Shown here: positions 18,616 to 26,095 of the stretch, one piece after another
How the letters are laid out: every line of letters begins with the position of its first letter
Numbering within the stretch: the stretch's first letter is position 1
Assembly (NCBI GenBank): GCA_943788245.1
Contig: CALSPN010000048.1
Location: 1-64,000 of the forward strand
Direction of reading: 5' to 3'
From: an uncultured Verrucomicrobiae bacterium
GTDB taxonomy: Bacteria; Verrucomicrobiota; Verrucomicrobiia; Limisphaerales; AAA164-E04
Length of the DNA: 64,000 bases
Translations under genes and position numbers: made by a program
The notes under the pieces: generated by a model
The model's input: only the letters and a program-made list of their open reading frames with translations
Told to the model about the DNA's origin: nothing
Database searches by the model: none

Positions 18616-21600
18616 ATGATGAATGTAACAAAAAAGCACCCTCATCCATTGACCAGACGTCCTGATAGATGGGGTTGGATCCTTTGCTTCATCTTCTGCA
18701 ACGTGATTCTTTGCGCATTCATTCACCCTCTTTTACAGGCAGCTGACGCTCAGATGACCACCCCGCAGGTACGAATCCTCTCCGCACAAGGCACGGTGGA
18801 TATCTTCAGGGGAGAATCGCAATTATGGATCCCAGCAAAGGTCAACATGCCACTGGCTTTTGGAGATATCGTGCGCACCGGTCGCCGTAGCAAAGCGGCT
18901 TTGCAAATGACTGATAAAACTTTACTTAAGATCCGCCAGCTAACCAGCATGGTTATTCAAGCGCCTGAAAAGAAGGGGAAACAGCCGCTGCTGAACCTGC
19001 GTTCAGGTTCGGTATTCTTTTTCAGTCGAGAAAGTCCGAAAGAAGTTCCTTTTCGAACATCCCTCACCTCGGGAGCCATCAGAGGAACGGAATTCGAACT
19101 CACAGCAATCGAAAACGGCTCATCCACCCTGACCATGGTCGATGGACTGGTAGACCTATCCACCCCCATGGGAAACGTGTCGGCAACAGGAGGAGAGCAA
19201 GTTGTCATTGAGCCTGATCAATCACCACGCAAGACGCCCATGCTGAATCCAGAATCAGTGATTCAATGGACACTTTATTACCCTGGAATACTGGACACAT
19301 CGGAACTGCAATGGACTGAGGGAGGCCCCCCTGAAATCTGGAAAGCTACTTTGAACGCCTACAATCTCGGCAACCTGCCTCAAGCCATTACATCCATGCC
19401 GAAGGCATCTGATCAAGCAGAGCAAGAAGCTGCCCGTTTACTCAGGGCAGCCATCTGGCTTGCACACGGTGAAGTTTCGATTACTGAAAATGCACTCGAC
19501 GGAAACTGGAATCTAGGACGGCATGCTGAATTAAGTGCGGCATTGAAGAGCTTGATCCAAAAGTTATCACTCGGGGGCCGCTCAAAAGACAATTACAATC
19601 AGGCTGAACTCGGTAGCACGCGCACGCTCATGTTGGCAAGATCTTATCATGCGCAAGCATCCTACCATCTTGAAGAGGCATTGGAATGGGCACAAAGGGC
19701 AGCTGAAGAGTCAACCACCTTTGGCTATGCATGGGCGAGGCTCGCGGAATTGCAATTCTCATTCGGCAATCATCAAAGAACAAAAGAAGCCTTGGAAAAG
19801 GCCACCGAAATATCCCCCGAAAATGCTCAGGCCCGAATCCTTGAGGGATTCATTCAACTCGCCAACAAGCAACCGGAAGCGGCACTGGCTTCAATGCAGA
19901 AAGCCGTTGAACTGGACTCGGGATTATCCAACGCATGGTTCGGGCAAGGTTTGGCAAAATTCAAGTTAGGCCAGACTGAACAAGCCCGCCAGGACCTGCA
20001 GGCTGCCACTATCCTCGAGCCGCAGCGGGCGTTGCTGCGCAGCTATCTCGGTAAGGCTTACGAGGCAGACAATGAATGGATCGCCGCAAAACGAGAACTG
20101 GACCGTGCCAAGGTACTGGATCCAAACGACCCCACTCCCTGGCTCTATAGCGCACTGATTCAATACCAGAAAAATGAGTTGATTCCTGCCATCACCGAAT
20201 TGCAGGAATCGGTCAGGCTGAACAACAACCGCAGCATCTACCGCTCACGCTCACTCCTGGACAAGGACCAGTCCATTCGTCAGGCAAACCTTGCGGTCAT
20301 GTATCGCGATGCCCAGATGCATGCGTGGAGTCAACGCGAAGCCACCCAGTCTATCGAGAGTGATTACACCAACGCGTCAGCTCACCTCTTCCTGGCGAAC
20401 AGTTACGATGCCCTGAGAGATCCACGTCAATTGAATCTTCGCTACGAAACTCCCTGGGCAAGTGAACTTTTCCTGGCGCAACTCCTGATGCCAGCAGGCT
20501 CCGCAAGTTTGTCGCGCCAGATTTCACAGAACGAATACACGGCACTTTTCGATCAGCAGCCGTTCCATCTGATCAACACAACAGAATATCAAAGCAGCGG
20601 GCTCTGGGATCAATCCACTTCCCACTTTGGCAATATGCCCGGATTTAGCTATGCTGTAGATGTTGACTATCTCCGCGACCCGGGGCAACGACCCAATAAT
20701 GATGTGGAAAACCTTTCGATTTGGACTTCAGCAAAGTTCAATCTGACGCCTCAGGACGAATTAATGATTCAAGCCGTCTACTCCGACTACGAATCGGGTG
20801 ATGCATCACAATACCACAGTCAGGCAAACGGAAGCACAACCCAGCGGGTTGAGGAAGACCAGGAACCCCTTCTTTTTCTGGGCTATCACCGTGTCTGGCA
20901 TCCTGGTAGTCACACGCTTTTTCTCGCCAGTTATTTTGACGATACTTTCAGGCGCCGGGATCCTGGAAGTATCGTTCCGCTCATTGATCGAAATGCGTCT
21001 GGGGCAATCACGGGCGTCAATCCCTTTACCTTTGACTTGAATTACCAACGCAAGCTGCAGGGTTTCAGCGCGGAGCTGCAACAAATTTTCAAAACCGACC
21101 AATCCACGATCATAGGTGGAGCGCGGTATCAATGGGCAGAGGTGGGCACTTTCGCAAGATTAGACCGCCCGGGAACCGCCTTTCCTCCCGTATTTTCGAC
21201 CCCACCGGCCAACCAGAATGTAAGTCCTGATCTCGACCGGTTTTCAGTTTATGGCTATCACTACTATCAACTGACGGAAAAGCTGATGTCTTACTTCGGT
21301 GCATCAGCCGAAACTCAGCGTTATCCAGAAAACACGGAAATACCACCGGTCTCGTCAAATGAAAAAACAAAGGCTCAGGTGTCACCCAAGATTGGATTGC
21401 GATATCGCCCTTTGGATCAAACGACGCTGAGGGCTGCCTACTCAAAGAGTCTTGGTGGCGTGTTTTTCGATCAAAGCATCCGACTGGAACCGACTCAGAT
21501 GGCAGGGTTCGTCAATGCTTACAGAAGCATCCTGCCTGAATCCGCTGCAGGCATTTTACCTGGCGCTGAGCAGGACATTGCTGGCATGGCATGGGATCAG

Positions 21601-22176
21601 CAGTTAGGCCCCAAAACGTTCCTGACCCTATCCGGACAATGGCTTCATTCCGATGGAGCCAGGTCCTTGGGCACTTTTGATTTCTCAAGTCTGCCGGCCA
21701 ACCTTGCAGATACACCTCAATCACTCGATTACGAAGAAAGATCATTACTGCTATCCTTCAATCGCTTGATCGACCCCTGGTTCTTTGCGGGTGCCAATTA
21801 CCGCTTATCTCATGCATCACTGGACACGACCTTGAATCACATTCCAACCACTGTGCTCCCAACAGGAAATGCTCAAAGGGATGCCACCCTAAATCAAATC
21901 CAGATGTTTGCCGGCATCCAGCATCCCTCTGGGTTTTTCGCGCGTGCCGAAGGTGTTTACAGCCGGCAATCGCATGAGGGAACGATACGGCCTGCGAATG
22001 AATCACTTTGGCAATGGAACCTATGGGCAGGCTATCGGTTTTGGCAACGAAGGGCAGAGATGAGCGCAGGCATATTGAACATCGGCGATCAGGACTACCA
22101 GCTAGACCCCATTCATTACTACAACGAATTACCTCGTGAACGGACTTTTACTGCTAGATTTAGGCTTAGCTTTTGA
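18616..22176 (+). CDS. FecR-domain, TPR-repeat and outer-membrane beta-barrel fusion protein
   Basis: A 1,186-residue envelope protein. After a signal peptide ending near LLQAADA, a FecR-like domain spans about residues 50-195 (GDIVRTGRRSKAALQ, SGAIRGTEFELT). A TPR array follows to about 560 (WARLAELQFSFGNHQRTKEA and AWFGQGLAKFKLGQTEQARQ). From about 620 to the end lies a TonB-receptor-like beta-barrel with alternating aromatic strands, ending TFTARFRLSF, whose last Phe is the usual outer-membrane signal. There is no plug domain or visible TonB box. FecR domains normally relay signals in the periplasm, so this protein may sense at the outer membrane. The CHASE2 adenylate cyclase gene begins 54 bases downstream and is probably its partner. 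Function is inferred only. Confidence 0.8.
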   Translation: MMNVTKKHPHPLTRRPDRWGWILCFIFCNVILCAFIHPLLQAADAQMTTPQVRILSAQGTVDIFRGESQLWIPAKVNMPLAFGDIVRTGRRSKAALQMTDKTLLKIRQLTSMVIQAPEKKGKQPLLNLRSGSVFFFSRESPKEVPFRTSLTSGAIRGTEFELTAIENGSSTLTMVDGLVDLSTPMGNVSATGGEQVVIEPDQSPRKTPMLNPESVIQWTLYYPGILDTSELQWTEGGPPEIWKATLNAYNLGNLPQAITSMPKASDQAEQEAARLLRAAIWLAHGEVSITENALDGNWNLGRHAELSAALKSLIQKLSLGGRSKDNYNQAELGSTRTLMLARSYHAQASYHLEEALEWAQRAAEESTTFGYAWARLAELQFSFGNHQRTKEALEKATEISPENAQARILEGFIQLANKQPEAALASMQKAVELDSGLSNAWFGQGLAKFKLGQTEQARQDLQAATILEPQRALLRSYLGKAYEADNEWIAAKRELDRAKVLDPNDPTPWLYSALIQYQKNELIPAITELQESVRLNNNRSIYRSRSLLDKDQSIRQANLAVMYRDAQMHAWSQREATQSIESDYTNASAHLFLANSYDALRDPRQLNLRYETPWASELFLAQLLMPAGSASLSRQISQNEYTALFDQQPFHLINTTEYQSSGLWDQSTSHFGNMPGFSYAVDVDYLRDPGQRPNNDVENLSIWTSAKFNLTPQDELMIQAVYSDYESGDASQYHSQANGSTTQRVEEDQEPLLFLGYHRVWHPGSHTLFLASYFDDTFRRRDPGSIVPLIDRNASGAITGVNPFTFDLNYQRKLQGFSAELQQIFKTDQSTIIGGARYQWAEVGTFARLDRPGTAFPPVFSTPPANQNVSPDLDRFSVYGYHYYQLTEKLMSYFGASAETQRYPENTEIPPVSSNEKTKAQVSPKIGLRYRPLDQTTLRAAYSKSLGGVFFDQSIRLEPTQMAGFVNAYRSILPESAAGILPGAEQDIAGMAWDQQLGPKTFLTLSGQWLHSDGARSLGTFDFSSLPANLADTPQSLDYEERSLLLSFNRLIDPWFFAGANYRLSHASLDTTLNHIPTTVLPTGNAQRDATLNQIQMFAGIQHPSGFFARAEGVYSRQSHEGTIRPANESLWQWNLWAGYRFWQRRAEMSAGILNIGDQDYQLDPIHYYNELPRERTFTARFRLSF

Positions 22177-22230
22177 TCCATTGCTTGTTAAGGTCAAAAC
22201 AAAGGAGAACACGTTTTGCCCTGATCCATT

Positions 22231-24288
22231 ATGTCAATCTCGGATTCCCTGCAAAGATCAACATGGCTGGGCCCTGTCTTGGGAGCCACGATAAGCATTA
22301 TACTGGGATTGTTTTGTTTTGATTCCATCATGCCGGTCACCGAGGCCTTGCGCCACAAAAGCTACGACCTCTCTTTTCATCTCAGACCAAGAATCATCCC
22401 CGAAGAAGCGGTGTTGGTTTATATGGATGATGCGTCCTATCAGGAATTCAATCCTGGCTACAAACGCTGGGACCGTGCGCTTCATGCCAAGTTATTGGAC
22501 CGCTTGACGAGCGAAGGTGCGAAGCTCGTTGTCTTCGATATCATTTTTTCTGAGGCAAACGGGGAAAACCCAGAGGCAGACGCCGCATTTGAGGCAGCCA
22601 TCGAACGCAATGGCAATGTCGTTCTAGGCGCGGACTACGTCACGGCAGGATCTTCCTACAGCATGAAACAAGCTGAGATGCTCTTGCCTCCTCATGAACC
22701 TTTCGAGTTTGCAGCTGCATCGACAGGATTTGTTCAATTGCACGAAGACACTGATTTCATGGTGAGAAGGCATTACCACAGTGGCAGTTTGAATCCAGAG
22801 ATCACCAGCATGACTTGGGAGTCCGCCATGTGGTCAGAGTCTCCTTATATTGAATCCCAAGAAAGTGCCTCCGGTAGAGAAGCACAGCAAGCTTGGGTTA
22901 ACTACTACGCCGAACCCAGATCACTGCCATCGGTGAGTTACAGCCAAGCCATCGCTGAGGATCAATTAACTGAAGGTTTTTTCAGAGATAAAATCGTTCT
23001 GATCGGGGCCAATATCCGCACAGGTGAAAGCAATCAACGCAAGGATGAATTCAGAAATCCATTCGTTGACTGGGAGTACGTAAGCCAGACCGATCGCTTC
23101 ATGCCGGGTGTGGAGGTACACGCAACCATTTTATTGAACCTTGTCAGAGGGGATTGGCTACGCAGAGTCCCCTTAAGCTATCAGGCGATTTTGGTTACCT
23201 TGACGGGATTGGTCTTCGGTTTGGGGATTGGACGACTTCGTCCCCTGTCAGCTATTCCCGTTACCCTGCTCTCCATGGCACTTGTCATCGGGTTATCGCA
23301 ATGGTTATTCCAGCAATACCGTTACTGGTTTCCATGGCTCATTATTGTCATCGTTCAATTACCTGCAGCGATGCTTTGGTCAATTACTTTCAATGCAGCT
23401 CGTTTGTATGTGCAACGGCAGTTATTGAGACAATCATTGAACCTCTACTTATCTCCCCGTCTGGTGAAAGCATTCTTGAATCAAAAGAATCGAAACTTCC
23501 TGAAACCCGGCGCGGAAAAACAAGAAGTCACTATTTTGTTCAGTGATATTGCTGGATTCACGAGCGCCACCGAAGGCATGGACTCAGATAAATTAGCTCG
23601 ATCCATGAACGCGTATTTTCAACGCATGGTGGAAAATGGCATTCATCCACAAGATGGAACGGTGATCAAATTTATTGGAGATTCCATTTTTGCGCTATGG
23701 AATGCTCCTGAACCACAAAAAGACCATGCTCTGCGAGCCTGCAATGCCGCACTCGCACTCGGCCAGCAATCCTTTGAGTTCAGTAAAGACCACCCCATCA
23801 AAACTCGCATTGGCATCCACACGGGTGTTGCCAATGTGGGAAACTTCGGAAGCAATAACCGAGTTGACTACACCGCCATAGGCGAAAATATCAATCTGGC
23901 ATCCCGTATCGAAGGTTTAAACAAGTATCTCAGAACAAATATCCTCATCAGTGCAGAAACACGGGAAAAGGCTGGTGAAGGGCTGAAGGCGGTGCGGTAC
24001 CTCGGTCAATTCAGATTATCGGGGTTTGGAAAGAAATTCGGAATCTACGAATTACTGCAGACCAACAATGCTTTTTCATCGAGCCAGAAACTTCAGCAGG
24101 ATTTTAATGTAGCCATGGCAAGGCATGATCAAGGGAACATGTTATCTGCCATGGAGCTGTTTTCCTCCATTCTGAAAGAATGCCCTGATGATGGCCCATG
24201 CCAATTTTACCTCAAACGATGCCAGGATATCCACTCCAAACCAACGGAATCGATTGATCCCACGCTTATTGTGATAGAAGAAAAATAA
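22231..24288 (+). CDS. CHASE2-domain class III adenylate cyclase
   Basis: A membrane enzyme predicted to make cAMP in response to a periplasmic cue. An N-terminal membrane helix (about 13-30) precedes a CHASE2 sensor domain (about 35-310; LVVFDIIFSEANGENPEADA). Three membrane helices follow (about 320-400), then the catalytic domain (about 430-610). Metal aspartates are D439 (FSDIAGFT) and D484 (KFIGDSIFALW). K480 and D546 (DYTAIG) are the pair expected for adenine rather than guanine, and N555/R559 (NLASRIE) the transition-state pair, so the active site looks complete. A short helical tail resembling TPR ends the protein. It lies directly downstream of the FecR-TPR-barrel gene, probably in one transcript. 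Confidence 0.92.
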   Translation: MSISDSLQRSTWLGPVLGATISIILGLFCFDSIMPVTEALRHKSYDLSFHLRPRIIPEEAVLVYMDDASYQEFNPGYKRWDRALHAKLLDRLTSEGAKLVVFDIIFSEANGENPEADAAFEAAIERNGNVVLGADYVTAGSSYSMKQAEMLLPPHEPFEFAAASTGFVQLHEDTDFMVRRHYHSGSLNPEITSMTWESAMWSESPYIESQESASGREAQQAWVNYYAEPRSLPSVSYSQAIAEDQLTEGFFRDKIVLIGANIRTGESNQRKDEFRNPFVDWEYVSQTDRFMPGVEVHATILLNLVRGDWLRRVPLSYQAILVTLTGLVFGLGIGRLRPLSAIPVTLLSMALVIGLSQWLFQQYRYWFPWLIIVIVQLPAAMLWSITFNAARLYVQRQLLRQSLNLYLSPRLVKAFLNQKNRNFLKPGAEKQEVTILFSDIAGFTSATEGMDSDKLARSMNAYFQRMVENGIHPQDGTVIKFIGDSIFALWNAPEPQKDHALRACNAALALGQQSFEFSKDHPIKTRIGIHTGVANVGNFGSNNRVDYTAIGENINLASRIEGLNKYLRTNILISAETREKAGEGLKAVRYLGQFRLSGFGKKFGIYELLQTNNAFSSSQKLQQDFNVAMARHDQGNMLSAMELFSSILKECPDDGPCQFYLKRCQDIHSKPTESIDPTLIVIEEK

Positions 24289-24655
24289 CCCAACAGGACC
24301 AAGGTTCACTGGATCGCATAGGGCTTTGCAGAGCCGGATCTGTTATTGCCTGGTTTGCAAATGGACTCTCAGGTGAGGGCAGCAACGCGCAACCACTCTG
24401 ATTTCAATCCATCTAATTCACATACCATTGTAACCTGTAAGCCCCCCTTGGCAGATCGTCTTTCATGAGCAAGCAAGTCAGATAAAGGAGACCTCGGTCT
24501 GCCCTTTTCAAACTTTCTTGAGGCAAATGCGTCTATCCCGAATTTTGCTTGGAACGGAACAATCTCAACGAATGAAAGTGAGAACAAAGTTCTTTTCCTA
24601 AATGAGAGGGTCAAGCAGAATCGTGCCTTACCCAATCAAATTGAATGAGAATGAG
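24289..24655. other. Intergenic region, nothing recognised
   Basis: No gene-like sequence on either strand. An open frame on the minus strand (24635-24369) has no family resemblance and an improbable composition. No clear terminator hairpin after the cyclase gene. Confidence 0.5.
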
Positions 24656-26095
24656 ATGAATATGATCGAAGCTTGCATGAATCGTTTTTGGCAAAACAAA
24701 GTTTGCGCGTTCGTGGCCCTGTGTTGCCTGGGGTCGGGAATTTCAGGCGCGCGAGCCGAAAGCCTTTACAAGCAGGACTTCCAATCGACTGAAAGCGGGA
24801 AGACTCCCGGTGACTTCCTCTTACTGAGTGGTAAATTTGCAGTAGGAAAGGCCTCGTCAAATCACCAATTGACACTGCCTGGCGCACCTCTCGACAGCCA
24901 TGGCGCCATTTTCGGTCCAGACAATGATGGCGACCTGGTTTTATCTGCACGTATCCGATCCGAGCAAAAGGGCAGGCTCTATCCATCGTTTGGTATTGGC
25001 CTCTACGGATTGGGCGGCCACATCCTGAAAGTATCTCCCGCTAAAAAAAGTCTGGAGCTTTTCCGTGGGCGTACGTCCGTCATGGAAACCCCCTTCGATT
25101 GGGAATCCGAAAAATGGACACACCTGAAATTACAAGTATCTTCACAAAATGAAAACAGCTGGTCCGTTCAAGGCAAGGCATGGAATGAGGGTGCGATCGA
25201 GCCGAAATCGTGGCAACTAAATACCACCACCAAGCTCGCTCCCACTCAGGGAAAAGCCAGCTTGTGGGGGCAACCTTATTCAGGTAGAGCCATTCATTAT
25301 GATGATATTTCCCTGGAACGACCCAGATCTGCTGTCAGCGAGAACGCCGCTCCATTTCAATTGGGAATCCAAACGTGGACTTTGAGAAACCTTGATTTTG
25401 ATGCGGTGGTCTCCTTTGCAAAGAAGCATGGTATTCGAAATCTTCAGGTTATCGGCAAACACATCGATCCCCATGCCGACTGGGAAGAGATCAAAGCCAA
25501 AAAAGCCATCCTGGATACCAATGGACTTCGAGCCTATACCTTCGGAGTCGCAGGCACTTCAATGGACCACGCGTTCAACCGTCGCTTGTTTGAATTTGCC
25601 AAATTCATGGGGATCAAGGTCATCATTGTCGAACCTAGGGATTTTGCCATTTTTGATTCACTGGAAAAACTGGTTCAAGAATTCGATATCCGCATTGCCA
25701 TCCACAATCACGGCCTGACATCCTTGTATGGCAACCCCATTGTTGTTCGAAATATCATTCAACATCGTGACGAGCGCATAGGGGTCTGCCTTGATCTCGG
25801 CTGGATTACAGCGGCAGGATTTGATGCAGCAAAAGTTTTCCGCAATTACAAGGGCAGGGTCTACGATATTCATCTCAAGGATAAGACCGTAGAGATCACG
25901 GACAGAAAGCTAGTTGGCATCAGCGCGCACATTGGCAAGGGGGATGCCAATATCGCAGGTTTGGTAAATGCCCTGAAGGAGACAAACTTTGATGGTGTTC
26001 TTGCCATCGAAACAGACAGCCCCATCTTTGCTCGTCAGCCAGATAATTTTGTCAGAAGCGCCAAAGCCTATTATGAAAGCTTGGTAAATCCTTGA
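24656..26095 (+). CDS. Secreted jelly-roll plus sugar-phosphate isomerase/epimerase-like TIM-barrel protein
   Basis: About 479 residues. The start is uncertain among ATGs at 24656, 24662 and 24677; the last puts the signal peptide (NRFWQNKVCAFVALCCLGSG) right at the N-terminus. Residues about 35-235 form a concanavalin/DUF1080-like jelly roll. From about 240 a xylose-isomerase-like TIM barrel begins (FQLGIQTWTLRNLDFDAVVS) with metal-ligand positions IIVEPRD, CLDLGW, YDIHLKD and VLAIETDSP, the Glu/Asp/His/Glu set of this fold. A barrel of this type exported and joined to a sugar-binding-like domain suggests processing of oxidised or keto sugars outside the cytoplasm, as for DUF1080 proteins. 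The substrate is unknown. Confidence 0.75.
   Translation: MNMIEACMNRFWQNKVCAFVALCCLGSGISGARAESLYKQDFQSTESGKTPGDFLLLSGKFAVGKASSNHQLTLPGAPLDSHGAIFGPDNDGDLVLSARIRSEQKGRLYPSFGIGLYGLGGHILKVSPAKKSLELFRGRTSVMETPFDWESEKWTHLKLQVSSQNENSWSVQGKAWNEGAIEPKSWQLNTTTKLAPTQGKASLWGQPYSGRAIHYDDISLERPRSAVSENAAPFQLGIQTWTLRNLDFDAVVSFAKKHGIRNLQVIGKHIDPHADWEEIKAKKAILDTNGLRAYTFGVAGTSMDHAFNRRLFEFAKFMGIKVIIVEPRDFAIFDSLEKLVQEFDIRIAIHNHGLTSLYGNPIVVRNIIQHRDERIGVCLDLGWITAAGFDAAKVFRNYKGRVYDIHLKDKTVEITDRKLVGISAHIGKGDANIAGLVNALKETNFDGVLAIETDSPIFARQPDNFVRSAKAYYESLVNP

Follow-up and report, generated by a model that had tools for sequence, protein, structure and literature searches.

Two neighbouring genes on the forward strand of the window, by which the whole analysed stretch of 64,000 nucleotides is meant, very probably encode an outer-membrane-to-cAMP relay of the NsrA/CyaK type of Sinorhizobium meliloti. 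Support for the relay reading is good, as mutants have shown that the homologous pair of S. meliloti acts in this way. The architecture, the conserved pairing and the homology to NsrA/CyaK were established in this analysis, and as judged from the sequences the window pair is a distant, marine Verrucomicrobiota member of the type. An earlier sequence-only reading had proposed that a ligand at the barrel controls the CHASE2 cyclase; the relay part of this proposal is supported by the work on the homologous NsrA/CyaK, its claim of novelty is not.

The FecR-TPR-barrel protein and the CHASE2 cyclase

The first gene, from its ATG at 18616 to the end of its stop codon at 22176, encodes an NsrA-like FecR-TPR-beta-barrel outer-membrane protein of 1186 aa, assigned by Pfam, AlphaFold2, homologue search and profile alignment. 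The AlphaFold2 model was built from an input alignment of 40 homologues and had a mean pLDDT of 85.6. It starts with the hydrophobic helix of a signal peptide (aa 18-41, positions 18667-18738, also evident in the sequence), followed by a FecR-type periplasmic beta domain (aa 52-208, positions 18769-19239). Pfam placed FecR at aa 85-179 with an E-value of 1.1e-7, above the gathering cut-off, and the domain was aligned by hhalign to that of NsrA at 3.7e-28. According to sequence and model the FecR domain comes directly after the signal peptide, which leaves no cytoplasmic anti-sigma part. A TPR-type helical array, presumably periplasmic, was modelled at aa 240-624 (19333-20487), and several TPR families were matched by Pfam at about aa 340-540. 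The C-terminal part, aa 651-1186 (20566-22173), is a TonB-receptor-type barrel with 22 strands at 651-1185, most of it modelled with a pLDDT above 90. TonB_dep_Rec_b-barrel was matched at aa 671-947 (E 1e-6, above the cut-off). No plug domain was found by Pfam or in the AlphaFold2 model; the protein thus has the 22-strand barrel of a TonB-dependent receptor and lacks its N-terminal plug. All 50 listed Foldseek matches of the model were TonB-dependent receptors, with PqqU as the best (1.8e-15) and FecA and FpvA among them. The union of signal peptide, FecR, TPR and plug-less TonB-type barrel in one protein had been noticed from the letters alone, and Pfam and AlphaFold2 agreed with it; the barrel expected there beyond residue 620 was present in the model.

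A gap of 54 bases (22177-22230) separates the stop codon from the ATG of the second gene at 22231, the distance given in the sequence-only reading. This gene (22231-24288, forward strand) encodes a CHASE2 class III adenylate cyclase of 685 aa. In the model, the CHASE2 domain (aa 27-330, positions 22309-23220, Pfam 2.3e-40) is preceded by one membrane helix at the N-terminus and followed by three more, and the catalytic domain comes last (aa 429-598, positions 23515-24024, Pfam 4e-20). D439, K480, D484, T548, N555 and R559 were found at all six expected catalytic positions, as had been claimed before. By analogy with other class III enzymes we take D439 and D484 to serve the metal, K480 and T548 the adenine, and N555 and R559 the transition state. 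The protein is a class III adenylate cyclase with a full catalytic set, and activity is predicted from it.

Homology to NsrA/CyaK and to other FecR-CHASE2 systems

For the spread of the pair outside Verrucomicrobiota the analysis covered plasmid records only; among these, tblastn detected Methylocystis, Rhizobium and Ensifer plasmids on which a fused protein is encoded ahead of a CHASE2 cyclase. A S. meliloti record annotated nsrA-cyaK and a sister record had the same gene arrangement and the same domains. A fused-type protein of this kind and its cAMP-signalling role were reportedly published by Garnerone et al. (2018, J Bacteriol, doi 10.1128/JB.00019-18), according to papers citing that work. 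NsrA has 1190 aa, with FecR and TPR recognised by Pfam and a barrel predicted in print from about residue 600 (PMC7529298).

The window protein and its S. meliloti counterpart showed 22% identity over FecR and TPR (BLASTP, E 2e-18), and the cyclases 28% identity over 665 columns (2e-45). Profiles of the two barrel-protein families were aligned near end to end (1023 columns, E 1.5e-48), and the barrel alone reached 1.3e-11 with 97.4% probability, compared to 0.0-0.1% for shuffled-column controls. Common to both systems is a protein close to 1190 aa in length that combines signal peptide, FecR, TPR and barrel, with homology over the last three. Its gene is directly upstream of, and co-directional with, that of a CHASE2 class III cyclase, which in the window is a CyaK homologue. 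There are also differences. Identity of the barrel proteins is only 19-22%, the window genes are 54 bases apart whereas nsrA overlaps the start of cyaK, and in an unrooted tree the window cyclase groups apart from CyaK. The window comes from a member of Verrucomicrobiota with no known plant host and not from an alphaproteobacterial plant symbiont, and no Clr-type regulator was identified in the window MAG.

In S. meliloti, mutants showed that signal 1 is perceived only if nsrA and cyaK are both intact, so that the two proteins are needed to convert an external signal into cAMP output; the candidate for signal 1 is a ribosomal protein, uL2 (PMC7529298). Overproduction of NsrA raises the sensitivity of the bioassay (PMC7529298, Sorroche et al. 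2020), and the pathway was restated in a 2026 paper (PMC13001267). The earlier claim that fused version and mechanism were undescribed therefore falls, the mechanism being established in the homologous NsrA/CyaK (PMC7529298, PMC13001267).

Neighbouring FecR and CHASE2 genes had been mentioned for other phyla in the earlier reading, and they are indeed in print. A cluster in Campylobacterota holds a CHASE2 cyclase, a FecR outer-membrane protein, a TPR protein and a phosphodiesterase (PMC9239204). FecR, TPR and CHASE2 cyclase are co-encoded as in the window, whereas the published cluster is described with FecR and TPR on two different proteins and has the phosphodiesterase as an additional member (PMC9239204). 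In Burkholderia and relatives FecR is found next to a CHASE2 histidine kinase, the BiofilmReg operon having a LysM-FecR protein (PMC5192318). A FecR protein is paired with a CHASE2 receptor there too, but the output is a histidine kinase, and neither barrel nor TPR was reported (PMC5192318).

Pairing in Pedosphaerales and beyond

The survey covered 58 genomes, namely the window's own and relatives of its genus, family and order (Pedosphaerales). Near-full-length barrel proteins were found in 50 copies in 31 of the 58 genomes, often several per genome and with identities of mostly 35-97%. A gene was counted as paired when a CHASE2 cyclase followed on the same strand within 800 bases downstream. 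This applied to 24 of the 50 genes, in 20 genomes. For the other 26 no CHASE2 cyclase was present within 800 bases downstream; some were at contig ends, some had the cyclase farther away, upstream or with one gene between, and some had none nearby. Given these 26 genes, some barrel proteins might work on their own or with cyclases encoded elsewhere. Full-length genes without an adjoining CHASE2 cyclase were seen at loci L053, L054, L055, L057, L058, L063 and L067.

At the level of genomes, CHASE2 was present in 35 of 36 barrel-bearing compared to 13 of 22 barrel-less genomes (Fisher p 0.0004), and in the sole barrel-bearing genome without it the contig stops just past the barrel gene. Phylum-wide sampling of 289 genomes gave four barrel copies in three genomes outside the order, three of the four directly followed by a CHASE2 cyclase. 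A search for this domain order beside CHASE2 cyclases had been suggested as a check of the sequence-only reading, and its outcome speaks for the pair: the pairing recurs within and outside the order and is not due to chance. The spread and paralogy of NsrA-like proteins in Verrucomicrobiota, with many barrel genes lacking an adjoining cyclase, are added here to what is known of the type.

Also added by this analysis is a further arrangement within the order, in which CHASE2 proteins that lack a fused partner are frequently accompanied by a short FecR protein (250-320 aa), encoded immediately upstream or divergently. It carries neither TPR nor barrel and was seen beside CHASE2 cyclases on the same strand (L105, L106, L107) or divergent (L103, L104). 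Since FecR accompanies CHASE2 with or without the barrel, this co-occurrence points to FecR as the part in contact with CHASE2.

In an unrooted tree 22 partner cyclases from Pedosphaerales fell in a set of 27 rows with a split support of 100/100. The CyaK-type partner cyclases of Alphaproteobacteria formed a separate supported set, a separation which in an unrooted tree may also reflect an ancient split. The pair therefore need not descend as a single unit, and its history would be either old or repeated. A clade shared with CyaK, which would indicate joint descent, is not among the published defining features of the type.

The proposed relay and its alternatives

In the proposed relay, the outer-membrane barrel would bind an extracellular ligand, probably a macromolecule, by its external loops. 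Because it has no plug, the barrel is regarded as a receptor and not as a transporter powered by TonB. In the periplasm, TPR array and FecR domain would pass the change on to CHASE2 of the inner-membrane cyclase, presumably by direct contact. CHASE2 would in turn alter how fast the enzyme makes cAMP on the cytoplasmic side, and a cyclic-nucleotide-binding protein would read the cAMP. In the window genome, as in two congeners, the search for class III cyclases turned up the CHASE2 cyclase alone. The window MAG, which is 79% complete, yielded no cNMP-binding protein; this is read as incompleteness because all four congeners have one (4/4), and a cAMP system without a reader was rejected on the same ground. 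Four genomes of the window genome's family (G005-G008) lacked barrel protein, CHASE2 and class III cyclases altogether and had zero or one cNMP-binding protein each, as if the whole cAMP system had been lost.

A system like FecA/FecR/FecI, with a sigma factor under the control of FecR and TonB-dependent ligand import by the receptor, is highly improbable. Pfam did identify a FecR domain and a TonB-receptor-type barrel, and the 22-strand fold is common to the window protein and to FecA and FpvA, TonB-dependent receptors with FecR-type signalling. Unlike these, the window protein has no plug, no anti-sigma part in the cytoplasm and a FecR domain that is fused to the barrel and not located in the inner membrane. 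The ORFs nearby, read by eye, resemble a peptidase, asnS and a gene of sugar-isomerase type, and none was recognised as coding for an ECF sigma factor. Within a relay, CHASE2, a domain with a described sensor role, might sense a ligand of its own which the barrel protein only admits or concentrates; this would agree with those CHASE2 proteins of the order that have a short FecR protein alone beside them, or for which none was found. Such a division of labour is nevertheless quite unlikely: FecR stands beside CHASE2 even where the barrel is lacking, in line with a contact through FecR, and the signal reported for S. meliloti, uL2, is a protein that would hardly pass through the barrel (PMC7529298).

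Of the 72 slots flanking the unit, 13 hold a secreted protein with Ig-like repeats, compared to 6 of 468 background genes (Fisher p 2e-8). These Ig-like proteins are up to 1942 aa long (loci L054, L064, L066, L068, L070, L076, L078, L079, L081, L084, L085, L087 and L088). The excess is a lead only, since gene calls were mechanical, fewer genomes contributed to the background of random and cyclase-only stretches, and no Ig-like gene adjoins the window copy. TPR arrays fused to outer-membrane barrels are known in exporters, for example PgaA, BcsC and Slam. The window protein could thus be a channel for secretion or export with a merely co-transcribed cyclase, and the Ig-like proteins would suit as cargo, but this explanation is unlikely. 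It leaves the FecR domain and the recurrent CHASE2 pairing unexplained, the window copy has no such cargo beside it, and a receptor role was shown for the homologue NsrA (PMC7529298). The exporter was set aside on the 22 strands and on fold matches to TonB-dependent receptors, with no exporter barrel among the 50 matches listed. Under the receptor reading, the NsrA-like proteins of Pedosphaerales might instead read a dedicated secreted Ig-like protein that comes from the same cell or from its kin and whose gene often adjoins the unit. This is a doubtful suggestion; if true, the relay would sense the surface layer of the cell itself, or neighbouring cells, and not a host signal.

For the NsrA/CyaK-type relay itself, the results mean that the outer-membrane-to-cAMP route studied in a legume symbiont has probable counterparts across much of Verrucomicrobiota, where it has been duplicated repeatedly and reaches into a marine lineage. 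As this lineage has no known plant host, the original role of the relay was probably not symbiosis. The natural variants, with or without an adjoining cyclase or with a short FecR protein replacing the fused one, offer a route to the communication between FecR and CHASE2. Downstream of the pair, a single ORF at 24602-26095 appeared, by eye from its translation, to join a concanavalin-like part (DUF1080-type) to a sugar-isomerase-like TIM barrel.
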